64,000 nt of DNA from Nitrospirales bacterium (lineage in GTDB: Bacteria > Nitrospirota > Nitrospiria > Nitrospirales > UBA8639). The notes beneath the pieces were generated by a model. That model worked only from the letters and a program-made list of their open reading frames with translations. It was not told the DNA's origin and searched no databases. Shown here piece after piece: positions 9,150 to 64,000 of the stretch. Location of the stretch: NCBI GenBank assembly GCA_022828225.1, contig JAJEJG010000023.1, positions 224,199 to 288,198 on the forward strand, given 5' to 3'. The position numbers were made by a program, and so were the translations under genes. Position 1 is the stretch's first letter. Each line of letters opens with the position of its first letter.

Positions 9150-10772
9150 ATGGCTCTCTGGGATCACATTGGCCTCAATCAGTTCGTCGGGCTTCAGCCG
9201 TGGGTGTGGGTGCAACTGGAAAGCGCCGAGCCGCCGGGGCCTTTCCCGTTTATGGGCGGCGTCGATCCGGAGGTCGTCGCGAGTCTCCATGAAGTCCACG
9301 GCATTCTCATGAGCGCGGTGGAAACGGCCATCAGTGACGTGTTCGCGCATCGCACGCCGGTCGATGATGCGGCGGCCGGTCGCCGGTTGGAGGATGCCTA
9401 TGCGGAAGTAGTGCAGTCACGACCACGGCTCCGGCAACACATCCGGTGCGGACGGAGTCCCGACGGCACGTTTTTCTGGGACTTTCCCAAGGATCGCCGT
9501 CAGTCAGCGGTCATGAACTACGGCGGCCTGCGTATTTTCAACGCGGTGAAGCGGCAGGCGCTGCCCATGGGATTCGAGCGCCTGCTCTCCCCCGAGGTGG
9601 GCAAGCTGTTGGGCTGCTTGAACGGAACCCGGACCGTCTCGGAAATCCGCACCGTGGTCATGACCGCGGGTCGTGACAAGGCGTCACAACTCGAGCACCT
9701 CCTTGAACAACTCGATTCACACGAATGTTTGGCCGTAACGGACCGTTCCTCTGTTCGCCGACAGTGGCTCGACGCGACCCGGGACCAGGATATGGTTCAT
9801 CTGGGTCACGCGGCCTTGATCTATCGACAACAGGACCGGTTTCTCTGGTTTGATCCGTGGCTGATGCCCTGGTTTGCCGAATCCCCGGTTCCTTCGCTGT
9901 GGACGCCGTTGTTGCCGCCACCGGCCGCCGTGTTCCTGACGCACGACCATGACGACCACGTCGATCCCCGCACGTTGCTGCATCTGCCCAAGGACGTACC
10001 CGTGATTGTGCCCAGCCGGAAAAACCGGAAGACGTGGCATTTCGATTATCTGTCCTTGATGCGCGAACTGGGCTTTACGAACGTCATTGAACTGGCACAT
10101 GGAGAATCCTGGAAATTCGACGGCGGGCAGGTCGCGTCGGTTCCGTTTTTCGGAGAGGATCCCTGCGACCTGGCGCTGCCGCGCAATTGCTATTTGATCA
10201 GCGACCGTGGACACAATACCCTGGTGCATGCCGACAGCGGACCCACGAACGACGGGCATTCGGCGATCGAGGACGGCGTCATCGCCGGGCTTGTGGAGCA
10301 GTATGGTCCGATTGCGACCGTCTATGCCTCACAGCAACAGTTGAAAGAGATTCGTTCGTACGCGGCGCATGCGAGCCTGTCCCATCCCGGAAAGTGGTTG
10401 GAGGTGGGAGAAAACGGATTCCTCACCAACGACTACCTGTCGGACTTGATGAGACAAGCGCAAGCCCAATTGTTCGTCTCGTACGCGACGGGGGGCGCGG
10501 ATTGGTATCCGGACCATTTGTCGTTCATGTTCAGCGATCGCAATCCGGCCCGGACGGCGTTACTCACCGCCCACTGGGATCCCCCGGAATCCCTGCGAGA
10601 CGTGCTGGCGGCCTCCGGCCGTCAGTACCATCATGGCCAAGCCTTGGACATTGTGCGCGCGTCGGCGCCGGGCCAAGTCCACATCATCGAAAAGAACGAG
10701 GCCCTCGACCCGCTCGTTCTGTATCAACTCGACCATGAGGTGCCCGCGTTCCTGAAAAGCGTTCAGCGGTAG
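9150..10772 (+). CDS. MBL-fold metallo-hydrolase/oxygenase-like protein
   Basis: The start is set at ATGGCTCTCTGG because GGAAAGG lies just upstream; the track start is a TTG 45 bases earlier. The 540-residue protein has an N-terminal part of unknown fold, a small helical segment around 145-205 (GFERLLSPEVGKLLGCLNG to SHECLAV) that resembles a PqqD-type winged helix, and a C-terminal metallo-beta-lactamase domain with VFLTHDHDDHVD (HxHxDH metal site). The multidomain layout recalls CmlA-type di-iron oxygenases as well as plain hydrolases. Which one it is cannot be decided from sequence alone. It follows the VOC gene on the same strand and ends before a hairpin. Confidence 0.8.
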   Translation: MALWDHIGLNQFVGLQPWVWVQLESAEPPGPFPFMGGVDPEVVASLHEVHGILMSAVETAISDVFAHRTPVDDAAAGRRLEDAYAEVVQSRPRLRQHIRCGRSPDGTFFWDFPKDRRQSAVMNYGGLRIFNAVKRQALPMGFERLLSPEVGKLLGCLNGTRTVSEIRTVVMTAGRDKASQLEHLLEQLDSHECLAVTDRSSVRRQWLDATRDQDMVHLGHAALIYRQQDRFLWFDPWLMPWFAESPVPSLWTPLLPPPAAVFLTHDHDDHVDPRTLLHLPKDVPVIVPSRKNRKTWHFDYLSLMRELGFTNVIELAHGESWKFDGGQVASVPFFGEDPCDLALPRNCYLISDRGHNTLVHADSGPTNDGHSAIEDGVIAGLVEQYGPIATVYASQQQLKEIRSYAAHASLSHPGKWLEVGENGFLTNDYLSDLMRQAQAQLFVSYATGGADWYPDHLSFMFSDRNPARTALLTAHWDPPESLRDVLAASGRQYHHGQALDIVRASAPGQVHIIEKNEALDPLVLYQLDHEVPAFLKSVQR

Positions 10773-53071: not shown

Positions 53072-54169
53072 ATGACGATTCGAGACACCGTCGGGCAACT
53101 CGTGATGGCAGGGTTTCACGGGACGGACCTCTCCCGGACGTTTCTCGATTGGCTGGAGGAGTATCGACCCGGTGGCGTGATTCTCTTTTCGCGCAACCTG
53201 GAAGATCCCGAACAAGTGGCGCGGCTGACGAACGCCCTGCAAGAGCATACGCCTACCCTTCCCTTGTTGATTGCCATCGATGAGGAAGGCGGTCGCGTAT
53301 CACGCTTGCCTCAGGGCTTTACGACGTTTCCGGCCGCTTCACGGGTCGCGGCGTGTCATGCTCCGGACGTGGCCTATGAAGTGGCGGCGGTCACGGCCCG
53401 GGAACTGCGGGCGGTCGGGATCAACATGAACATGGCGCCGGTGTTGGATGTGAACAGCAATCCGGCCAATCCCATTATCGGCGACCGGGCGTACGGCACG
53501 GAGCCCGAACCGGTCTGCGCGTACGGTCTGGCCGTGGCGCGGGGGCTTGAAGACAATGGCATCATTCCATGCGGTAAACATTTTCCCGGGCATGGCGAGA
53601 CCAACACGGATTCCCATCACGGACTGCCCGTGGTCGAGGCGGACTGCGCACGACTCGACGCCGTGGAACTGGAACCCTTTCGACGGGCGATCAGCCGGGG
53701 ATTACCCGCAATCATGACCGCGCACGTGCGCTACCCGGCGCTCGACGCGGAAGCGCCCGCGACGCTGTCCAAACCCATCCTCACCGATCTGTTGCGGAAC
53801 CGGTTGGGGTTTGAAGGCGTCACGCTGACCGATGATATGGAAATGCGCGCCATTCTCGACCACCAGCCCATCGGAGAAGCATCGGTCCGAGCGTTACAGG
53901 CCGGTGCCGACATGGTCGTCATCTGTCATGAGCAGGAGCAACAAGGAGCGGCCATCGCAGCCATCGAACACGCGCTTGAAGGCGGCGAACTCTCGTGGGA
54001 GAGGCTCACGGCCAGTGTCGCGCGTGTCCGGGCATTGAAAGACAAACACCTCGCGTCGTTGCAGCCCGTTGATCCGTCCCGGGTCGCGCAAACCGTTGGG
54101 CATCCGAGGCACCAAGCCTTGTTGGCGAAGATTCACAATGGTGTCGGCGAGCCGGATTCACCACGCTGA
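53072..54169 (+). CDS. nagZ: Beta-N-acetylhexosaminidase
   Basis: 365 residues, glycoside hydrolase family 3. PGGVILFSRNLEDPEQV, IAIDEEGGRVSRLP and GKHFPGHGETNTDSHHGLPVV are the NagZ signatures, with the catalytic His in the DSHHGLP loop. The nucleophile Asp lies in GVTLTDDMEMRAI. It removes GlcNAc from muropeptides during cell-wall recycling. No signal peptide, so cytoplasmic. It follows pepA in the same direction and precedes the Cys/His protein after a 34-bp gap. Confidence 0.95.
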   Translation: MTIRDTVGQLVMAGFHGTDLSRTFLDWLEEYRPGGVILFSRNLEDPEQVARLTNALQEHTPTLPLLIAIDEEGGRVSRLPQGFTTFPAASRVAACHAPDVAYEVAAVTARELRAVGINMNMAPVLDVNSNPANPIIGDRAYGTEPEPVCAYGLAVARGLEDNGIIPCGKHFPGHGETNTDSHHGLPVVEADCARLDAVELEPFRRAISRGLPAIMTAHVRYPALDAEAPATLSKPILTDLLRNRLGFEGVTLTDDMEMRAILDHQPIGEASVRALQAGADMVVICHEQEQQGAAIAAIEHALEGGELSWERLTASVARVRALKDKHLASLQPVDPSRVAQTVGHPRHQALLAKIHNGVGEPDSPR

Positions 54170-54203
54170 ATCAATGCCGGCAGAGTTTTTTACGGAGGAG
54201 AAC

Positions 54204-54590
54204 ATGGGGTTAAAAAAAGGCGACATCATCGACGAGCACAAACGCCACCCGGAAAGTTGTGGCTTGCTGATCAAAGTCATGGCCGGCGGATCGGGGTTTG
54301 AAAAAGTCGTGTGCTGCGGGCATGAACTGACGGAAGAAGACGTGATCCCGGCATTTTCGCGTGGCCGAGGACGGAAACGCGGCACACTCCCGCCGGCCGT
54401 GCTTCTCGATGAGAAAAAGCTGCACCCGGATTCCTGTGGGCTCCGCGTCATGATCATGGACGGGGGAGAAGGGTTTCAGGAAATCAGGTGTTGTGGCCAT
54501 TCGCTCAGGCTCAATGCAATGAAGGAATTCAAATATGGTGAAGAAAAGCGAGCAGATTTGCCTGAAACCGGGCCGACTGGTCATGCCTGA
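54204..54590 (+). CDS. Duplicated Cys/His-site protein, desulforedoxin-like
   Basis: The start is ATGGGGTTAAAA after ACGGAGGAGAAC, giving 128 residues. Two copies of a 26-residue unit are present: HPESCGLLIKVMAGGSGFEK with CCGHEL, and HPDSCGLRVMIMDGGEGFQE with CCGHSL. Ligand candidates keep identical spacing (H15, C19, C37, C38, H40 and H74, C78, C96, C97, H99). CCG plus an upstream Cys resembles desulforedoxin/rubredoxin-like sites, but the first Cys is His. It probably binds zinc or iron. A basic linker (SRGRGRKRG) separates the units. No family was recognised. Confidence 0.8.
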   Translation: MGLKKGDIIDEHKRHPESCGLLIKVMAGGSGFEKVVCCGHELTEEDVIPAFSRGRGRKRGTLPPAVLLDEKKLHPDSCGLRVMIMDGGEGFQEIRCCGHSLRLNAMKEFKYGEEKRADLPETGPTGHA

Positions 54591-55178: not shown

Positions 55179-55463
55179 ATGGCTATCAGTGACGAAGAAA
55201 AACTCGGGTCGGTAAGAAGCGCTGTGGATTTGGCGATCGTAGGGGATAACATCAGCGATATTGCCGCGTTCACACTGGAGAAACATGAATTCAAAAATGA
55301 CACGACGCTTTCTGCCGAGGTGCGTGAGGCAGGGGACGCCAGGATCAAAGAGGTCTTGTGGAAGCGGGTGGAAGAATTGAAAAAGCGGCGTATGCAGATT
55401 CTGGCGGAAATGTTCACCCTGGCCGAAACCACGCTTGAAGAAGTTCTCAGCAAAGGGAAATAA
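55179..55463 (+). CDS. Small conserved helical protein, paralog 1
   Basis: 94 residues with start after CAGGGGGGTAAAAAAG. Mostly helical: GSVRSAVDLAIVGDNISDIAA, then DARIKEVLWKRVEELKKRR and ILAEMFTLAETTLEEVLSKG. No signal peptide, no Cys and no double-Gly motif. About 85 percent identical by eye to the protein encoded at 55909. I do not recognise the family. It follows the STAS gene by 62 bases. Confidence 0.8.
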   Translation: MAISDEEKLGSVRSAVDLAIVGDNISDIAAFTLEKHEFKNDTTLSAEVREAGDARIKEVLWKRVEELKKRRMQILAEMFTLAETTLEEVLSKGK

Positions 55464-55908: not shown

Positions 55909-56187
55909 ATGAGAGACGAAGAAAAAATCGGGTCGGTGAAAAGCGCGGTGGATTTGGCAATCGTGGGGGATAACATCAGCGATATTACGTCGTTTACCCT
56001 GGAGAAATATGAATTCAAGAATGACACGACGCTTTCTGCCGAGGTGCGTGAGGCAGGAGACGCCAGGATGAAGGACGTTTTGTGGAAGCGGGTGGAAGAA
56101 TTGAAAAAGCGGCGCATGCAGATTCTGGCGGAAATGTTCACCTTGGCGGAAACCACGCTTGAAGAGGTTATCAATAAAGGGAAATAA
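55909..56187 (+). CDS. Small conserved helical protein, paralog 2
   Basis: 92 residues from ATGAGAGACGAAG with AGCAGAAAGGT upstream; the track start at 55843 lacks such a site. It begins MRDEEKIGSVKSAVDLAIVG and is nearly the same as paralog 1 from FKNDTTLSAEVREAGDAR through to its end. DNA identity is high, including the third codon positions, so the duplication or gene conversion is recent. Function unknown. It lies 247 bases before the PKS gene on the same strand. Confidence 0.8.
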   Translation: MRDEEKIGSVKSAVDLAIVGDNISDITSFTLEKYEFKNDTTLSAEVREAGDARMKDVLWKRVEELKKRRMQILAEMFTLAETTLEEVINKGK

Positions 56188-56434: not shown

Positions 56435-59400
56435 ATGAACCAATCACCCAACCCCGTCGCCATCGTTGGATACAGTTACCGCATGCCGGGCGGAATCCGG
56501 ACCGACGATGACTTCTGGCGTCTGCTGAGCGAACGTGAGATCGTGCAGGAGTCCGTGACCGATCGCTACGGCAAAGGGTACCGTCCGATCGGCGGGTTTT
56601 CCGGCCCGGGGCGCTTCGCGAGTCCCTACGAGGGACTGATCCGCGAGGATGGAGAGAAGTTTTTCGATCGCAGTCTCTTCGGTTTGTCTCATAAAGAAAT
56701 GACGTTAGCGGACCCGCAGGTACGGATGTTGTTGACCTGTGCCTGGGAGACCTTCGAGCGGGTCGGCTGGGATTTGCACGCCTTGCGCAACAGTCCGACG
56801 GGCGTCTTTATCGGTGCGCAGGTACCTGCAGTGGCCAGTTGGCGTCCGATGCACGGGGCCTCCGAGTTCGACGTGACCAGCATCAGTCTGGCCATGCTGT
56901 CCAACAGGATCTCCTACCACTTCAACCTGATGGGCCCGTCAACCACCTATTGCACCGCGTGTTCCGCCGGGCTGACCGCGCTGCACTGGGCGATGACCGC
57001 GCTCCGGTGCGGCGACTGCGAACAAGCTCTCGTCGGGTCCGTCAATTACTTGGGCACCGCCAAGCTGAGTGCGTCCTTCAATGCGCTGGGTGTCATCAGT
57101 TCGGATGGCCGGTGCCATTCCTTCGACGCGGAAGCCAACGGCTACATGCGCGCGGAAGGGGCGTTCGTCTATGCCGTCAAGCCCTTGGCCGCGGCCGAAA
57201 GAGACGGGGATCCCATCTACGCCGTCATCGAAGCCACCGCGGTCAATGCAGCCGGTGCGGCCGACGGAACCGAGGGCTTGGCCCAAGGGCGCTACATCAC
57301 CGCGCCCACCCGCCATTCGCAAGTGGAGTTGATGCGTATCGCCTGCGCCCGCGCCAATCGTGCGCCTCAGGAGTTCGATTACATCGAAGCCCATGCGACC
57401 GGTACCGTGGTGGGTGACCGTATCGAGGGGAATGCCATCACGGAGGCGTTCGGCGGTTTCGACCGCCAGGTTCCGTTGCGGGTTTCCAGCGTCAAGAGCA
57501 ACGTGGGGCACATGGAAGCCGCCGCGTTTCATTGCGCCTTGCTCAAGGTCATCCTGATGATGCAGCGCCGCACGTTCGCGCCGATCTCCAAGAATTTCCT
57601 GGTGCCGAATCCGGAGATCGACTTCGACAGGGGTCCCATGCAGGTGCAGACGACCTGCGAACCTTTTCCCGACCGTCCGGTCCTGGTCGGCATCAATTCA
57701 TTCGGTTTCGGCGGGGCCAACGGGCATTGCGTGGTACGGGAATACCGCCCGGCGCAACCACGGATCTGGTCAATGGCCCTGGCTCCGGAGGCGGGCTTCA
57801 TGATCCCCCTGTCGGCGCGGACGTCCGGGACGCTGGTTCAAAGCGCACGACAACTGCGGGAGGCACTCGAGAAACAACCGATGGACCTCTATACGCTGGC
57901 CGGCAATCTCAGCCGTCGCCGTACTCATTTCCCTGCGCGGACGGCTTTTGCGGTGCGCAACCAAATAGAATTGATCGAAGCGCTGGATGCCTTTGAAAAA
58001 GACCCCGCGCCGGTCGCAACGGTCAGCGAAGGCGAACGACGTCTGGTGATGGTGTTCTCAGGACAGGGGACGCAGTGGGCCGGTTGCGGTCGCGGGCTCT
58101 ACGACGCCGACCCCGTGTTCCGCCGCGTCATCGATGCGATCGAGGGATACTGGCGTGAGCACTCGGACGTCTCGTTGCGTGCAGCCTGTTTCTCGGCCAG
58201 TCAGTCAGAACTCGACGAGTGCGAGTTGGCCCAACCCGTCACGTTCATGATCCAATGCGCTCTGGCGGAATTGTTCAAGACGTGGGGGGCGTACCCTGAC
58301 TGCGTGGTGGGGCACAGTTCCGGCGAGGCCGCCGCGGCTTACGCATGTGGGGCTCTCTCTCTGGCGGAAGCCACACGCCTGATTTTTCATCGCGCCACGT
58401 TGCAACAGCGCGTGGCCGGTTCCGGTCGCATGCTGGCGATCGGCCTCGACCGGCCTGGCGTGGAACAACTGCTCGACACGCTACACGTTCCCTTTCGGGA
58501 CGGGGAAGCCCGGCAGGTTGAGATCGCCTGCGAGAACGCGCCGGCCAGCACCGTCATCTGCGGGAAGGAGGCTGCCTTGCGGCCCGTCATGGAGGAATTG
58601 GACCGGCGCCACCTGCAGAATCGGCTGCTTCAGGGCAATATCGCCTTCCATTCCACGGCGATGGATCCGCTCAAGGACGACGCCGGGGTGTTCCTGTCCT
58701 TTCTGAACGATTGCGCCTTCGACGCCGAAGTGCCGTTGGTTTCTTCGGTGACCGGACAGACGACGCAACGGCTGGACAGCGCCTACTGGTGGAAGAACAT
58801 TCGCCAGACGGTCCTCTTTGCCGCGGCGGTGGAAACCGTCAAGCGGGAGTACCGGCCCGACGTCTACTTGGAACTCGCGCCGCACAGCGCCCTGCAATCC
58901 ACCCTTTCGCAGTGCCTGGAAGACAGCGTGCCGGCGCCGGTCTGCATTCCGACGCTGATGCGAGACACGGACGTCTGCCTCAGTTTCAAACAGGCGTTAG
59001 GCGCCCTGTTCAGGGCCGGTGTGGACCTGGACTTCGCCGCCCAGTATCCGCGACCGGAGCCCATTGTCCATTTGCTGCCCGGTCATCCGAAAGAAGAGCA
59101 GGTGACGATGGATATCATGTGTGACAACGAGTTTTTTGTCCGGCAAGGCGAGTATTCTCACGGCCCGCTGGTCGGCCACAAGGTGCCGAGTGACCATATG
59201 CTCTTCGAGGCGCGGCTTTCCGAGAAGGACTTTCCCTGGCTGGCGGACCACCGCGTACATCACGCGCCGATCATGCCCGGGGCCGGATACATCGAGTTAA
59301 TCCTGGAAGCCCTCGGAGGCGTTCCGCTTCATTTCGACGTGCTCGAATTCCTTCAGCCTTGTCCCATCCCCAAGACGCCGGTTCGCTTGCAGACGGCCTT

Positions 59401-62400
59401 GCATCCGGTGCCCAATGTACCGGACGAATTCACCTTCACCATCTCTTCCCGGCCGTACGACGTCGAGGCGCAGAGCGAGTTGCACGGCCGCGGCAAGGTT
59501 CGGCGGGTGAGCGGCGAGGTGCCGGCGGATGTGTCGGGCCGGCTGGCCGACATAGATACCGGCGGCTTTGAACGTTCGTCTCTGGCTGACGACAAGGATT
59601 TTTACGAACGACTGGAAGCCGTCCTCAGCGAAACCTTCCAGTACGGTCCCTTCTTCAGGACCATTCAGCGCGTTTTGGTGGATACGACGTCCAAGGCTTA
59701 TCTTTTCGATGTAGAGATGGATGGGGGGTTATGGACGACGGGTCGAGAAGAGGGCTATGTCTCGTGTCCCCCCTTGTTCGACGGGGGCCTGCAGATATTT
59801 CTTTATCACTTGCTCAATGCCGCTGACCTCTTCGCCATACCGCAGCGGGCCGAAGGCATCACGTTCGTTCGCCCGCCGACCGGCCCGAGAGTTACGTGTC
59901 ACGTCACCAAACCCCGTGAAGATTGGATGGATGCCAACGAGAGGGGGCAGCATTCCGTACGTCGGGGCGAAAGATCCGGCGGAAGCATCAGTTTTTACGA
60001 CGGCGCCACCGGAGAACTCATCGCCCACATCCGTGAATACACGTATTTCACGTCCAATCCGAAATGGAACGACTTGCTGAACAGCAAGCACAGGATTTCC
60101 TGGCAACCGAAATTCATCCCCACCGGCCAAGCACTGATCGACAGACTGCCCGACGGAGAGATCGAGCCCGTCGCGCTCATTGTCGCCCTCGAGCAGCCTG
60201 AAAGGGGCGAACGCTACGCCTGTCACGTCATCGAGTTCGCGGGTGGTCGCGAGCCCGACCGGACCGTCCTCAAACAATGTATCGACTATCTCGCGAGTGG
60301 CGAGGCACAGACCGAGTTCTGGCTCGTCAGCGACAACGAAGACGGCACCCGAGCCCATTACGACGCCTTCCATCAACGCGATGCCGCGTTGCGTTTCGAA
60401 AGCCTCGATCCTGCCGTTCAGCCGGAACTGGAAACGGGCTTGCTTCGTCCGGCCGCCGCCGAGATCATCTTCTTGCATGGGGGCGATGCGCCTGGGCCGG
60501 AGGCATGGCAAATTCTGCAGCGGTTGGCAGTAGCCGGAGGCTTGGCGCTGGTCTGTCATGACGAGGGTGCCGTTATCGACCCGAGCGCCGGCTGGACCAC
60601 GGTTCGCGCCGGCCGGTGCACGACCCTGCTGCAGGCGCCGCCGAACTACGCCGATTTCGCGGACACGACGAAATCTTCAGGCCCCCGGTGGGTGCTGGGC
60701 GAGCCGGGAAGCTGGGCTGAGGATTGGGCGGCCGTGCTGAACGCACCCGATGTGCATTCGATTGCTGCTGAACGCCTTGCCGCTGATTTTCTCTCGATCG
60801 ACGCGTGGCCGCAGGCGGCCGACGTGCGGGACATCGATTTCTTTTGCGGTACGGATTCCGAGGATCCGACCGGCGAACAGGCAGCGTCGCGTTTTATCGC
60901 CTTTGTCCAGTCTCTGGTTTCCTACAGGATCGAGCATGCGAGTTCCCCCTGCCGTTTGACCGTGGTGACGCGCGGAGCCGCCTTCGAGGTGGAAGACCCG
61001 CGCGGGAGTGCACTGTGGGGAGCGGTTCGAAGTATGGCCATGGAAATCGGTGAAGAAGCCGGGATCGATTTCCGCTTGGTGGACCTGGGTGGCTCCGATG
61101 ATTTGAAGACGTTGGCGTGGCTCAATCGTCACGACGTGCGCGAGCGCGAATTGGCAGTGCGACAGAACCGTTTATGGGTGCCGCGGATGGTCAGCATTCG
61201 GGAGCGCTATTCGCGGGTACCTCCCGGTGAGGACACCGCGTACCGGCTCTGCCTGGACAATCCGGGGCAGATGACCGGTCTCGAAATGAAAGCGTACGAG
61301 CCCCCGGCAATGGGGCCGAGCGACGTGGAAATCGATGTGGCCGCGTCAGCGCTCAACTTCCGTGACGTCATGGTCACGCTGGGGCTGTTGCCGGCATTGG
61401 CCTACGAACGCTCGGCGCTGGGTCATGAAGTCGGCATGGAGGCGAGCGGGGTCGTGCGTCGCGCCGGGTCGGAGGTGCGGCATTGTCGCGTTGGCGATGA
61501 GGTGGCCTTCATCAAGGGCGGGTGTATCGGCAATCGCGTGGTGGTCAACCAATACCTCGTATTCGTCAAACCAAGCCGCCTGAGCATGGAGGAAGCTGCG
61601 TCATCATTATCGGTCTACGTCACCGCGTACTATTCCCTGATCCATCTGGCCCGGCTGCGGAAGGGCCAGCGCGTGCTCATTCACTCGGCCATGGGCGGCG
61701 TCGGGCAGGCGGCCATCGCCTTGTCCAAGCACGCGGGGGCAGAGATCTACGCCACGGCCGGCAGCGAGAGCAAGCGTGACCAATTACGGGCGTTGGGCGT
61801 CCGGGCGGCGTTTGATTCGCACAGCTTCGACTGGTACGACGAGTTGATGGCGGCGACCGGGGGCGAGGGTGTCGACGTCGTGTTGAATTCCCTGGCCGGC
61901 CGCCACGTTGAATTGTGCCTGCAGGCCTTGCGTCCGGCGGGCTGGCACTGTGAGATCGGCAAGGTCGATATCTATGCCGACAACGAACTCAACCTGCGGA
62001 TCTTCCGGAAGAACCTGCGGTTCGCGGCCATCGACGTGGATCGCCTGATGATCGACGATCCGTTGCTTTCTCGCGAACTCTCTCAGGCCTGTCTGGACTT
62101 GCTGGATCAAGGCGCGTTGCCGCCGTTGCCAATCACCGTCTTTCCGTACAAGGATTACACCAAGGCCCTGCGCTTGATGACGACCGGCCAGCACCAGGGG
62201 AAACTCGTCCTGAAGGCTCCGCCGGCTTCCGTCGCTCCCGAATTCCCGATTGCGGACGTGCGGCCCCTGTTCGATCCCGAGGCGACCTACCTGGTGACCG
62301 GCGGCCTTGGCGGCTTCGGCCTGCGATTGTTGCCGTACTTGGTGGCCTCGGGTGCGCGCCATCTGACCTTGATGGACCGTGACCCTCAGCGACATCGGGA

Positions 62401-63472
62401 CGCCGAGTGGATTCGCCAGTCGAGCGCTCTGGCTTACATGGATGAGCACGTCGAATTCGACATCGTGCCTGGTGATGTGGCGAAGGAAGAGGACGTCCGG
62501 CGCTGCATCGCGCAATTGCAGAGGCCGCTGAAGGGTGTGTTCCATTTGGCCGGGACGCTGGACGATCGGTTACTGGCCGACATCTCGGATGAATCCCTGA
62601 CCAAGGTGTTCGCACCCAAGGTGCAGGGGGCTCTCCATCTGGAACGGGCCACCGAGGGCTGCGCTCTCGATCACTTCGTGTTGTTTTCCTCGACGGCCTC
62701 GATGTTGGGCAATCCCGGGCAGATCAACTACAGTGCGGCAAACGCGTTCCTGGACGCGTTGGTGGCCAGTCGCCGCCGGCAGGGTCTGCCGGGTTTGTCT
62801 TACAACATGGCCGCCGTGGCCGATGCCGGCATGGCCGCGCGCAGTCTCCCGGTCTTGCGCATGATGCGCGCCGCCGGGCTGCCGCCGGTCAGCAGCGATT
62901 TCGCCATTGCCAATCTTGACTATGCCTTGCGCTCGATGCCCGACCGGGATCACCTGGTCACCGTCCTGTTCGAACGTCCGACGTGGACGGTTGACTTTCC
63001 GGATTACATGCGCATCGGACGCTTAATGCACAATCAGGATGCCTTCAACGTTGGCGCCGCGGGCGAACTGACGCTCGACAGCGTGGTGGCGCAGATTGCC
63101 GCCAAGGTCGCCGAACTCTGCGGCCACGAGGAGGGCGGCGTGGAGGAACCGTTGTCCAGTTTCGGGCTTACGTCGATCTCGGTCGCCGAGTTGGGGACGT
63201 TCATCCAGACGCAGTTCAACTACCGCGTAAGCGCGCTCGAACTGATGACCACGGCCTCCGCGCTGTCGCTGGCACAGGGGATCATTCATGGAAAGACGGA
63301 CGTCGAGGAAGATCAGGCCGAGGCGGATAAGGCTGACGCTGAAGATGCGCTCGTTGTGGTCCAGCGGCACGTTCGCCGCACGCCATCAGCTTTTGCCAGC
63401 GCGCCGGATGATCACTTTCCGTCCGGGGCCGGGATTGAATCAAGCATCGCGGAAGAACCCGCTGTCCGCTGA
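56435..63472 (+). CDS. Single-module highly reducing type I polyketide synthase
   Basis: The start is ATGAACCAATCACC after TTGGAGAGAAG, giving 2345 residues. Domain order with rough positions: KS 5-425 (TYCTACSAGLTA, EAHATGTVVGD, KSNVGHMEAA), AT 535-840 (GHSSGEAAAAY; IAFHS suggests malonyl), DH 905-1210 (WLADHRVHHAPIMPG, LFDGGLQ), a pseudo-KR linker 1220-1580, ER 1620-1930 (LNFRDVM, HSAMGGVGQAAI), KR 1945-2200 (TGGLGGFG, NYSAANAF) and ACP 2225-2295. The ACP motif is FGLTSISVAEL, where Asp before the modified Ser is Thr. No thioesterase. It should fully reduce its chain, giving a fatty-acid-like product. A radical SAM gene follows. Confidence 0.95.
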   Translation: MNQSPNPVAIVGYSYRMPGGIRTDDDFWRLLSEREIVQESVTDRYGKGYRPIGGFSGPGRFASPYEGLIREDGEKFFDRSLFGLSHKEMTLADPQVRMLLTCAWETFERVGWDLHALRNSPTGVFIGAQVPAVASWRPMHGASEFDVTSISLAMLSNRISYHFNLMGPSTTYCTACSAGLTALHWAMTALRCGDCEQALVGSVNYLGTAKLSASFNALGVISSDGRCHSFDAEANGYMRAEGAFVYAVKPLAAAERDGDPIYAVIEATAVNAAGAADGTEGLAQGRYITAPTRHSQVELMRIACARANRAPQEFDYIEAHATGTVVGDRIEGNAITEAFGGFDRQVPLRVSSVKSNVGHMEAAAFHCALLKVILMMQRRTFAPISKNFLVPNPEIDFDRGPMQVQTTCEPFPDRPVLVGINSFGFGGANGHCVVREYRPAQPRIWSMALAPEAGFMIPLSARTSGTLVQSARQLREALEKQPMDLYTLAGNLSRRRTHFPARTAFAVRNQIELIEALDAFEKDPAPVATVSEGERRLVMVFSGQGTQWAGCGRGLYDADPVFRRVIDAIEGYWREHSDVSLRAACFSASQSELDECELAQPVTFMIQCALAELFKTWGAYPDCVVGHSSGEAAAAYACGALSLAEATRLIFHRATLQQRVAGSGRMLAIGLDRPGVEQLLDTLHVPFRDGEARQVEIACENAPASTVICGKEAALRPVMEELDRRHLQNRLLQGNIAFHSTAMDPLKDDAGVFLSFLNDCAFDAEVPLVSSVTGQTTQRLDSAYWWKNIRQTVLFAAAVETVKREYRPDVYLELAPHSALQSTLSQCLEDSVPAPVCIPTLMRDTDVCLSFKQALGALFRAGVDLDFAAQYPRPEPIVHLLPGHPKEEQVTMDIMCDNEFFVRQGEYSHGPLVGHKVPSDHMLFEARLSEKDFPWLADHRVHHAPIMPGAGYIELILEALGGVPLHFDVLEFLQPCPIPKTPVRLQTALHPVPNVPDEFTFTISSRPYDVEAQSELHGRGKVRRVSGEVPADVSGRLADIDTGGFERSSLADDKDFYERLEAVLSETFQYGPFFRTIQRVLVDTTSKAYLFDVEMDGGLWTTGREEGYVSCPPLFDGGLQIFLYHLLNAADLFAIPQRAEGITFVRPPTGPRVTCHVTKPREDWMDANERGQHSVRRGERSGGSISFYDGATGELIAHIREYTYFTSNPKWNDLLNSKHRISWQPKFIPTGQALIDRLPDGEIEPVALIVALEQPERGERYACHVIEFAGGREPDRTVLKQCIDYLASGEAQTEFWLVSDNEDGTRAHYDAFHQRDAALRFESLDPAVQPELETGLLRPAAAEIIFLHGGDAPGPEAWQILQRLAVAGGLALVCHDEGAVIDPSAGWTTVRAGRCTTLLQAPPNYADFADTTKSSGPRWVLGEPGSWAEDWAAVLNAPDVHSIAAERLAADFLSIDAWPQAADVRDIDFFCGTDSEDPTGEQAASRFIAFVQSLVSYRIEHASSPCRLTVVTRGAAFEVEDPRGSALWGAVRSMAMEIGEEAGIDFRLVDLGGSDDLKTLAWLNRHDVRERELAVRQNRLWVPRMVSIRERYSRVPPGEDTAYRLCLDNPGQMTGLEMKAYEPPAMGPSDVEIDVAASALNFRDVMVTLGLLPALAYERSALGHEVGMEASGVVRRAGSEVRHCRVGDEVAFIKGGCIGNRVVVNQYLVFVKPSRLSMEEAASSLSVYVTAYYSLIHLARLRKGQRVLIHSAMGGVGQAAIALSKHAGAEIYATAGSESKRDQLRALGVRAAFDSHSFDWYDELMAATGGEGVDVVLNSLAGRHVELCLQALRPAGWHCEIGKVDIYADNELNLRIFRKNLRFAAIDVDRLMIDDPLLSRELSQACLDLLDQGALPPLPITVFPYKDYTKALRLMTTGQHQGKLVLKAPPASVAPEFPIADVRPLFDPEATYLVTGGLGGFGLRLLPYLVASGARHLTLMDRDPQRHRDAEWIRQSSALAYMDEHVEFDIVPGDVAKEEDVRRCIAQLQRPLKGVFHLAGTLDDRLLADISDESLTKVFAPKVQGALHLERATEGCALDHFVLFSSTASMLGNPGQINYSAANAFLDALVASRRRQGLPGLSYNMAAVADAGMAARSLPVLRMMRAAGLPPVSSDFAIANLDYALRSMPDRDHLVTVLFERPTWTVDFPDYMRIGRLMHNQDAFNVGAAGELTLDSVVAQIAAKVAELCGHEEGGVEEPLSSFGLTSISVAELGTFIQTQFNYRVSALELMTTASALSLAQGIIHGKTDVEEDQAEADKADAEDALVVVQRHVRRTPSAFASAPDDHFPSGAGIESSIAEEPAVR

Positions 63473-63499
63473 TTCATCGGGACGGAGGATGCCATAGCC

Positions 63500-64000
63500 G
63501 TGCCACATGCGCTTCTGGTGTATCCCGAACATCCCCCGACTTACTGGGGCGCGAACTTTGCGCTGAAGCTCCTTGGGATCAAAGCGGTTTTTCCCCCTCT
63601 GGGTCTGCTCACTATCGCCGCGATGTTTCCGCCGGACTACGACCTCCGCCTCGTGGATATGAACGTGACGCCCTTGGAGGACTCCGACCTGGAGTGGGCC
63701 GATCTGGTCTGTACCTCCACCATGATCGTTCAACGACACTCCCTGCAAACCGTGATCGAGCGGTGCAACCGGACCGGCGTTCCCGTGGTGGCCGGAGGCC
63801 CCCATCCCACCACGTTTCATGCAGAAATTCCGGGCGTGACCCATTTCGTGCTGGATGAAGCCGAGGAAATCTTTCCCGAATTTCTGCGCGACCTGGAGAA
63901 CGGCACGACCAAAGCCATCTACCGGGAGCCGCGCAAACCGGACGTGAGCCTCACGCCGGTGCCCCGCTTCGACCTCATCGATACCAAGGCCTATCACTCG
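63500..64000 (+). CDS. B12-binding radical SAM protein, 5' part only
   Basis: Reading frame open to the window end, so the ORF track omits it. It starts at GTG with GGAGG 11 bases upstream. The first 167 residues are a cobalamin-binding-type domain: ALLVYPEHPPTYWGANFALK, FPPLGLLTIAAMFPP, LRLVDMNVTPLED and VVAGGPHPTTF. The usual DxHxxG His is absent, as in many radical SAM relatives. The N-terminus resembles the DUF4070 radical SAM group. The 4Fe-4S motif should lie beyond the window. It begins 27 bases after the PKS stop, so the two are probably co-transcribed, and may methylate or otherwise modify the PKS product. Confidence 0.85.
   Translation, partial: MPHALLVYPEHPPTYWGANFALKLLGIKAVFPPLGLLTIAAMFPPDYDLRLVDMNVTPLEDSDLEWADLVCTSTMIVQRHSLQTVIERCNRTGVPVVAGGPHPTTFHAEIPGVTHFVLDEAEEIFPEFLRDLENGTTKAIYREPRKPDVSLTPVPRFDLIDTKAYHS

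Follow-up and report, generated by a model that had tools for sequence, protein, structure and literature searches.

What does a reducing polyketide synthase gene lying close to the end of a contig make, and does it belong to a pathway that is still undescribed? The window analysed here, a stretch of 64,000 nucleotides, ends with base 64000, which is the last base of contig C19 (288198 bases). The features of interest lie at its right end and, beyond the contig end, on contig C6 of the same genome:

54769..55116, plus strand: STAS-domain protein, 115 aa, SpoIIAA-type anti-sigma-factor-antagonist family (Pfam STAS, E 2.7e-20)
55179..55463, plus strand: small predicted helical-hairpin protein, copy 1, 94 aa, POR_0546-like (alignment of 20 homologues; co-occurrence with swf)
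55909..56187, plus strand: small predicted helical-hairpin protein, copy 2, 92 aa, tandem duplicate, 88% identical to copy 1
56435..63472, plus strand: swfA, KS-AT-DH-ER-KR-ACP synthase, 2345 aa (Pfam; motifs; full-length identity to swfA of four phyla)
63500..64000, plus strand: first 167 codons of swfC, B12-binding domain (Pfam B12-binding, E 3.4e-12)
Contig C6, L037:19999-18905, minus strand: continuation of swfC (orthologues; DUF4070 match)

The domain architecture and motifs match the published description of swf, and the locus is therefore very likely a swf cluster (SwfA, SwfC, SwfB) in a Nitrospira-like, probably sponge-associated bacterium. A Nitrospira-like host also fits the evidence. 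The swfA-swfB-swfC cluster was described in 2013 from Plakortis and Aplysina symbionts (Della Sala et al., PMC3908369). The pathway is thus already described, and the Nitrospira-like locus is a further copy. It had been judged undescribed because the contig ended early; past base 64000, the continuation on contig C6 supplies the rest of swfC, a reductase-sulfotransferase gene and a CysN/C-like gene.

The synthase SwfA

The predicted protein of 2345 residues is borne out by an open reading frame from the ATG at 56435 to the stop at 63470-63472 and by its Pfam domains: KS (6-384), AT (539-864), DH (911-1006 and on), ER (1627-1926), KR (1950-2129) and ACP (2220-2281). The KS carries TACS, DPQVR at 93 and HATGT at 320. 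The published marks of swf KS domains are DPQ(I/V)R replacing DPQQR and HATGT replacing HGTGT (PMC3908369). The AT carries GHSSGE at 626, IAFH at 736 and QCALAEL at 607; this last signature is one substitution away from the published QCALVEL, which is present in other swf members found. The KR motif is YSAAN and the ACP motif is GLTS. Over its full length, SwfA is 66-89% identical to swfA of four phyla. Likeness to PS11G3, PSA11D7 and POR_0547-0550 was judged from the motifs, lengths and gene order in the published description.

The solved structure nearest to SwfA is mycocerosic acid synthase, which provides a precedent for an iterative reducing single-module synthase. All evidence fits the original prediction of an iterative reducing type I PKS whose product is a saturated, possibly methylated lipid; nothing backs the cross-linking that was also suggested. 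The window PKS did not reach NCBIfam membership as Pks2 (899 against a cut-off of 2400 bits) or as the PUFA synthase PfaA (225 against 1010 bits), and it has one ACP match and no tandem ACPs. Readings of the PKS as a PUFA, Pks2 or Pks13 (mycolic) synthase were rejected, since NCBIfam membership was not reached. A methyltransferase domain in the window PKS gave no Pfam match.

SwfC, SwfB and the proposed product

A B12-binding radical SAM gene had been placed within 27 bases of the synthase. Indeed, swfC starts with GTG at 63500, 27 bases past the PKS stop, and Pfam identifies its N-terminus as B12-binding. The gene is incomplete in the window because contig C19 stops at 64000; its radical-SAM core lies outside the window and was confirmed on contig C6 and in orthologues. 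SwfC has the architecture B12-binding, radical SAM and DUF4070. In this genome the B12 domain and the C-terminal half are seen, and 59 codons that include CX3CX2C fall in the assembly gap; the motif is present in 11 of the 11 SwfC orthologues examined. SwfC reached no NCBIfam equivalog of a characterised enzyme, the best matches falling far below cut-offs. Its kinship with characterised enzymes is only distant, which leaves methylation uncertain.

SwfB (835 aa) lies on contig C6, outside the window, and consists of NAD_binding_4 (56-291; PF07993, E 5e-47) fused to Sulfotransfer_3 (518-776; PF13469, E 1.8e-33). Its motifs are the SDR YxxxK, the PAPS-site GxNRTGTT and THREP, and the PAPS motifs of the sulfotransferase domain are kept in 12 of 12 sequences examined. 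The nearest solved relative of the reductase domain is the MxaA reductase; the sulfotransferase domain matches two uncharacterised solved proteins. The original prediction was right that there is no thioesterase, but chain release is not missing, because this gene for reductive release follows swfC just beyond the contig end.

The genes are members of one cluster, and we infer each catalytic step from domains, motifs and family. SwfA, judged by its domains and AT motifs, would use malonyl units iteratively to build an acyl chain that is fully or mostly saturated. SwfC, as a methylcobalamin-type radical-SAM protein, may methylate an unactivated carbon of the chain or of an intermediate. The thioester-reductase domain of SwfB would release the ACP-bound chain by reduction to an aldehyde or alcohol, and the fused sulfotransferase domain would add sulfate from PAPS to give a long-chain alkyl sulfate. 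The most likely putative product is a sulfated, possibly methyl-branched long-chain alcohol, and on balance we favour a long-chain alkyl sulfate. The same alkyl sulfate was proposed in 2013; the whole Plakortis cluster gave no detectable product in E. coli, and sponges are not known to contain a widespread alkyl sulfate (PMC3908369). One published swf cluster is without swfC, and none of swfC is seen after swfA at locus L119; both count against the proposal.

The genome holds PAPS-reductase/CysD-like and CysN/C-like genes, which can supply PAPS; a Sat-type ATP sulfurylase was found in no member of the genus. In the CysN/C-like gene after swfB (L037:14011-15780, minus strand), the stretch of the GTPase domain from P-loop to DxxG-type motif is shortened and the APS-kinase half is complete. 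A firm claim that this is the operon's dedicated PAPS gene was rejected. It adjoins swf only in Nitrospira and has the shortened GTPase part, swf-free genomes of the same genus hold longer orthologues, and another CysN/C-like gene lies in this genome beside PAPS-reductase/CysD-family genes.

Two other products were weighed. The nearness of SwfA to mycocerosic acid synthase, together with Pks2 of sulfolipid-1 as the closest NCBIfam model, would suit a mycocerosate-type product, an ordinary membrane fatty acid with methyl branches or a very long chain, with SwfB only reducing or transferring the chain. This is unlikely, given that the AT motif IAFH suggests malonyl over methylmalonyl (PMC3908369), that the Pks2 score is far under the cut-off and that the PAPS motifs are so uniformly kept. 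It is distinctly improbable that the sulfotransferase activates a beta-hydroxyl for elimination, so that an olefin is made and sulfate is only the leaving group. Curacin biosynthesis, which PMC3908369 names, likewise has a sulfotransferase beside a PKS, but the curacin step requires a thioesterase for hydrolysis and decarboxylation, and here there is none and the partner domain is a reductase. An alkyl sulfate is the preferred reading.

Distribution, decay and probable exchange between phyla

A genome scan found relatives of the reductase-sulfotransferase fusion at 21 MAG loci labelled Nitrospirota, Latescibacterota, Gemmatimonadota and Acidobacteriota, labels that could be wrong for some bins: the "Gemmatimonadota" bin L069 resembles Latescibacterota copies. 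Most of these loci also carry swfA and swfC; in one Acidobacteriota MAG (L072), swfC occurs twice in tandem. Full-length fusion matches are confined to this genus among 396 Nitrospirota genomes, and no SwfB relatives were found in viral contigs.

The swf cluster is absent or decaying in several genomes of the same genus, and it is dispensable. In one of them (L062, G011:C58), swfA has large internal deletions, swfC is gone and swfB has one stop; CysN/C is reduced to its C-terminal part and the 92-aa gene is intact. In G010 and G004 little remains beyond the swfB 3' end. These relatives lend some colour to the idea that the locus is a non-functional relic in the window genome as well, but this is very improbable: the catalytic motifs are intact in all sequenced parts, and dN/dS against the closest relative is 0.09-0.27 over the locus and 0.09-0.26 for swfA, swfB and swfC. 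The cluster copies are under purifying selection.

The trees suggest that swf has moved between phyla. The five Nitrospira copies fail to group as a single clade for SwfA (AU p 1e-10) or for SwfB (AU p 6e-5, in a tree with long branches that meet), and a single Nitrospira clade has AU p 0.02 for SwfC. Two Nitrospira copies (L063 and L075) are 96% identical in SwfA and 58% identical in SwfB, with dS of 0.12 and 1.18, and the SwfB of one of the two shares 83% identity with a Latescibacterota copy. This mismatch in identity and dS argues for exchange of swfB independently of swfA, which appears to explain the pattern best. Over the last 86 residues the two swfB copies return to 88% identity, and the sharp switch from 96% to 58% and then to 88% marks a likely recombination tract.

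Proposed join of contigs C19 and C6

To find the continuation of swfC, the genome was searched for DUF4070, which radical-SAM proteins of this kind are expected to carry at their C-terminus. A match lies at the right end of contig C6, where an open frame of 364 aa enters from the contig edge; swfB and then the CysN/C-like gene follow. Three genomes of the same genus (G001, G003 and G005) carry the small gene, PKS, radical SAM, reductase/sulfotransferase and CysN/C genes on a single contig, and in these the C19-matching and C6-matching parts of swfC lie about 177 bases apart; in a fourth (G013) the contig ends inside the reductase/sulfotransferase gene. We infer the C19-C6 join from this synteny and not from base overlap. 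That the join is wrong and the remaining operon belongs elsewhere is scarcely credible: the two contigs share no overlapping bases, but the three relatives keep the same order, no other swfC second half was found, and DUF4070 is otherwise matched in the genome only by a separate frame of 629 aa.

The small helical protein and its STAS companion

The two paralogous small genes and the STAS gene noted upstream of the PKS are all real, the small pair having 90% DNA identity, and co-occurrence with swf in other genomes places them with the cluster. Further upstream, between the nagZ-like and STAS genes, a conserved small protein (window 54069-54590) is kept in relatives; it has a weak desulfoferrodoxin-like match, below cut-off.

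Of 60 Nitrospirales genomes, 8 have the 92-aa protein; these are exactly the genomes with swf or a swfB remnant, and none of the 52 others has it (Fisher p 4e-10 over the 60 genomes and 3e-4 within the genus, n=14, figures that overstate the case since relatives are non-independent). It also occurs in 4 of 396 Acidobacteriota genomes, each time beside swf or a remnant, and in 13 of 13 further swf genomes tested. The gene adjoins swf in four phyla, and its tandem duplicate is seen only in the window genome among its genus. In one of those further swf genomes, at L115 (G419:C38:164000-178112, about 9531-9770), a second, unlinked gene of this type, 49% identical, lies near a short-chain dehydrogenase and a peptidase. 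The AlphaFold model of copy 2 (pLDDT 88) has helices at 16-37 and 44-91, and the protein is confidently predicted to be a helical hairpin. It matched no Pfam family and no PDB fold at E<=0.001.

In loci labelled Latescibacterota or Gemmatimonadota, a STAS-type gene lies upstream of the small gene. Six Acidobacteriota-labelled loci have a fusion of 215-216 aa instead, its N-terminal half STAS and its C-terminal half of the 92-aa type. The structure model of the fusion was set aside for its low confidence (pLDDT 65). A transporter as a shared neighbour of the fusion was set aside, an MFS protein adjoining it at a single locus. SpoIIAA and TM1442 are the proteins that the STAS domain resembles, and it keeps the double serine found at the phosphorylation site of this family. 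The 2013 table has a fusion of this kind (ORF15) as well as an unfused pair (ORF18 and ORF19), and leaves them out of the operon; ORF18 of fosmid PS11G3 is the STAS-type gene (PMC3908369).

The STAS and 92-aa proteins make up a conserved accessory pair that probably acts as partner to the synthase, in regulation or as a scaffold. A stronger reading, less likely than not, is that they are an obligate accessory module that moves with the synthase between phyla and controls or scaffolds it, for example by phosphorylation-dependent partner switching. We know of no such partner-switching device dedicated to a polyketide or fatty-acid synthase. The swf-linked pair had been overlooked and is new here.

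The source of the Aplysina swf cluster

The source of swf in Aplysina became uncertain once the poribacterial copy was dropped from the WGA-A3 genome. In that sequence, POR_0547/0548 represent an out-of-frame split at about SwfA residue 1108 (PMC3908369). Relatives of the window genome include Nitrospira bin75 from Aplysina aerophoba, and some relatives' bin names resemble sponges of PMC8163846. In bin75, swfA is split out of frame at about residue 1113 and the small gene lies upstream, as POR_0546 does. The shared split and the small gene point to a Nitrospira symbiont as the putative source of the Aplysina "poribacterial" swf. The bin75 split is a one-base difference at a C/T run; a programmed frameshift was set aside, mutation or assembly error being simpler.

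New here are the companionship of the 92-aa and STAS proteins with swf, the apparent interphylum movement with exchange of swfB, the release and sulfation gene, the bin75 split and the decay in some relatives. The STAS and helical pair is a concrete new suspect that stood outside the published operon count.

Comparison with known systems

Like mycocerosic acid synthase and Pks2 of mycobacteria, SwfA is a single KS-AT-DH-ER-KR-ACP module, but it differs from Pks2 in scoring far under the family cut-off and in a different arrangement of release and sulfation genes. SwfC is nearest to HpnP, the B12 radical-SAM hopanoid C-2 methylase, in the 2013 tree (PMC3908369).

The sup cluster shares with swf a mono-modular reducing PKS and a wide distribution in sponge symbionts. 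The sup-type PKS carries a methyltransferase domain, to which the window PKS gave no match; the sup-like PKS found in this genome is another protein, on contig C22. This second type I PKS (G000:C22:130675-140352; L148:4676-14353) has 3225 aa and the order KS-AT-DH-MT-ER-KR-ACP-KS, is followed by a Xan_ur permease and resembles a sup-type cluster; several genomes of the genus, some of them without swf, have similar PKSs.

Clusters like swf in Nitrospirota, Latescibacterota and Acidobacteriota were listed by Loureiro et al. 2022 (PMC9426513), and an orthologous PKS was reported in 2023 from Thalassonella (Tectomicrobia). The present locus resembles published swf in the domain order, motifs and size of SwfA (2345 against 2349-2361 aa), in the reductase and sulfotransferase domains of SwfB (835 against 832-839 aa) and in a B12 radical SAM SwfC. 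It shares the A-C-B gene order with POR_0547-0550 of the Aplysina aerophoba "poribacterium", and its upstream STAS gene and 92-aa ORF correspond to ORF18 and ORF19 of PS11G3. It differs from published swf in its Nitrospira-like host, in the duplication of the small gene and in the CysN/C-like gene that follows swfB in Nitrospira only.
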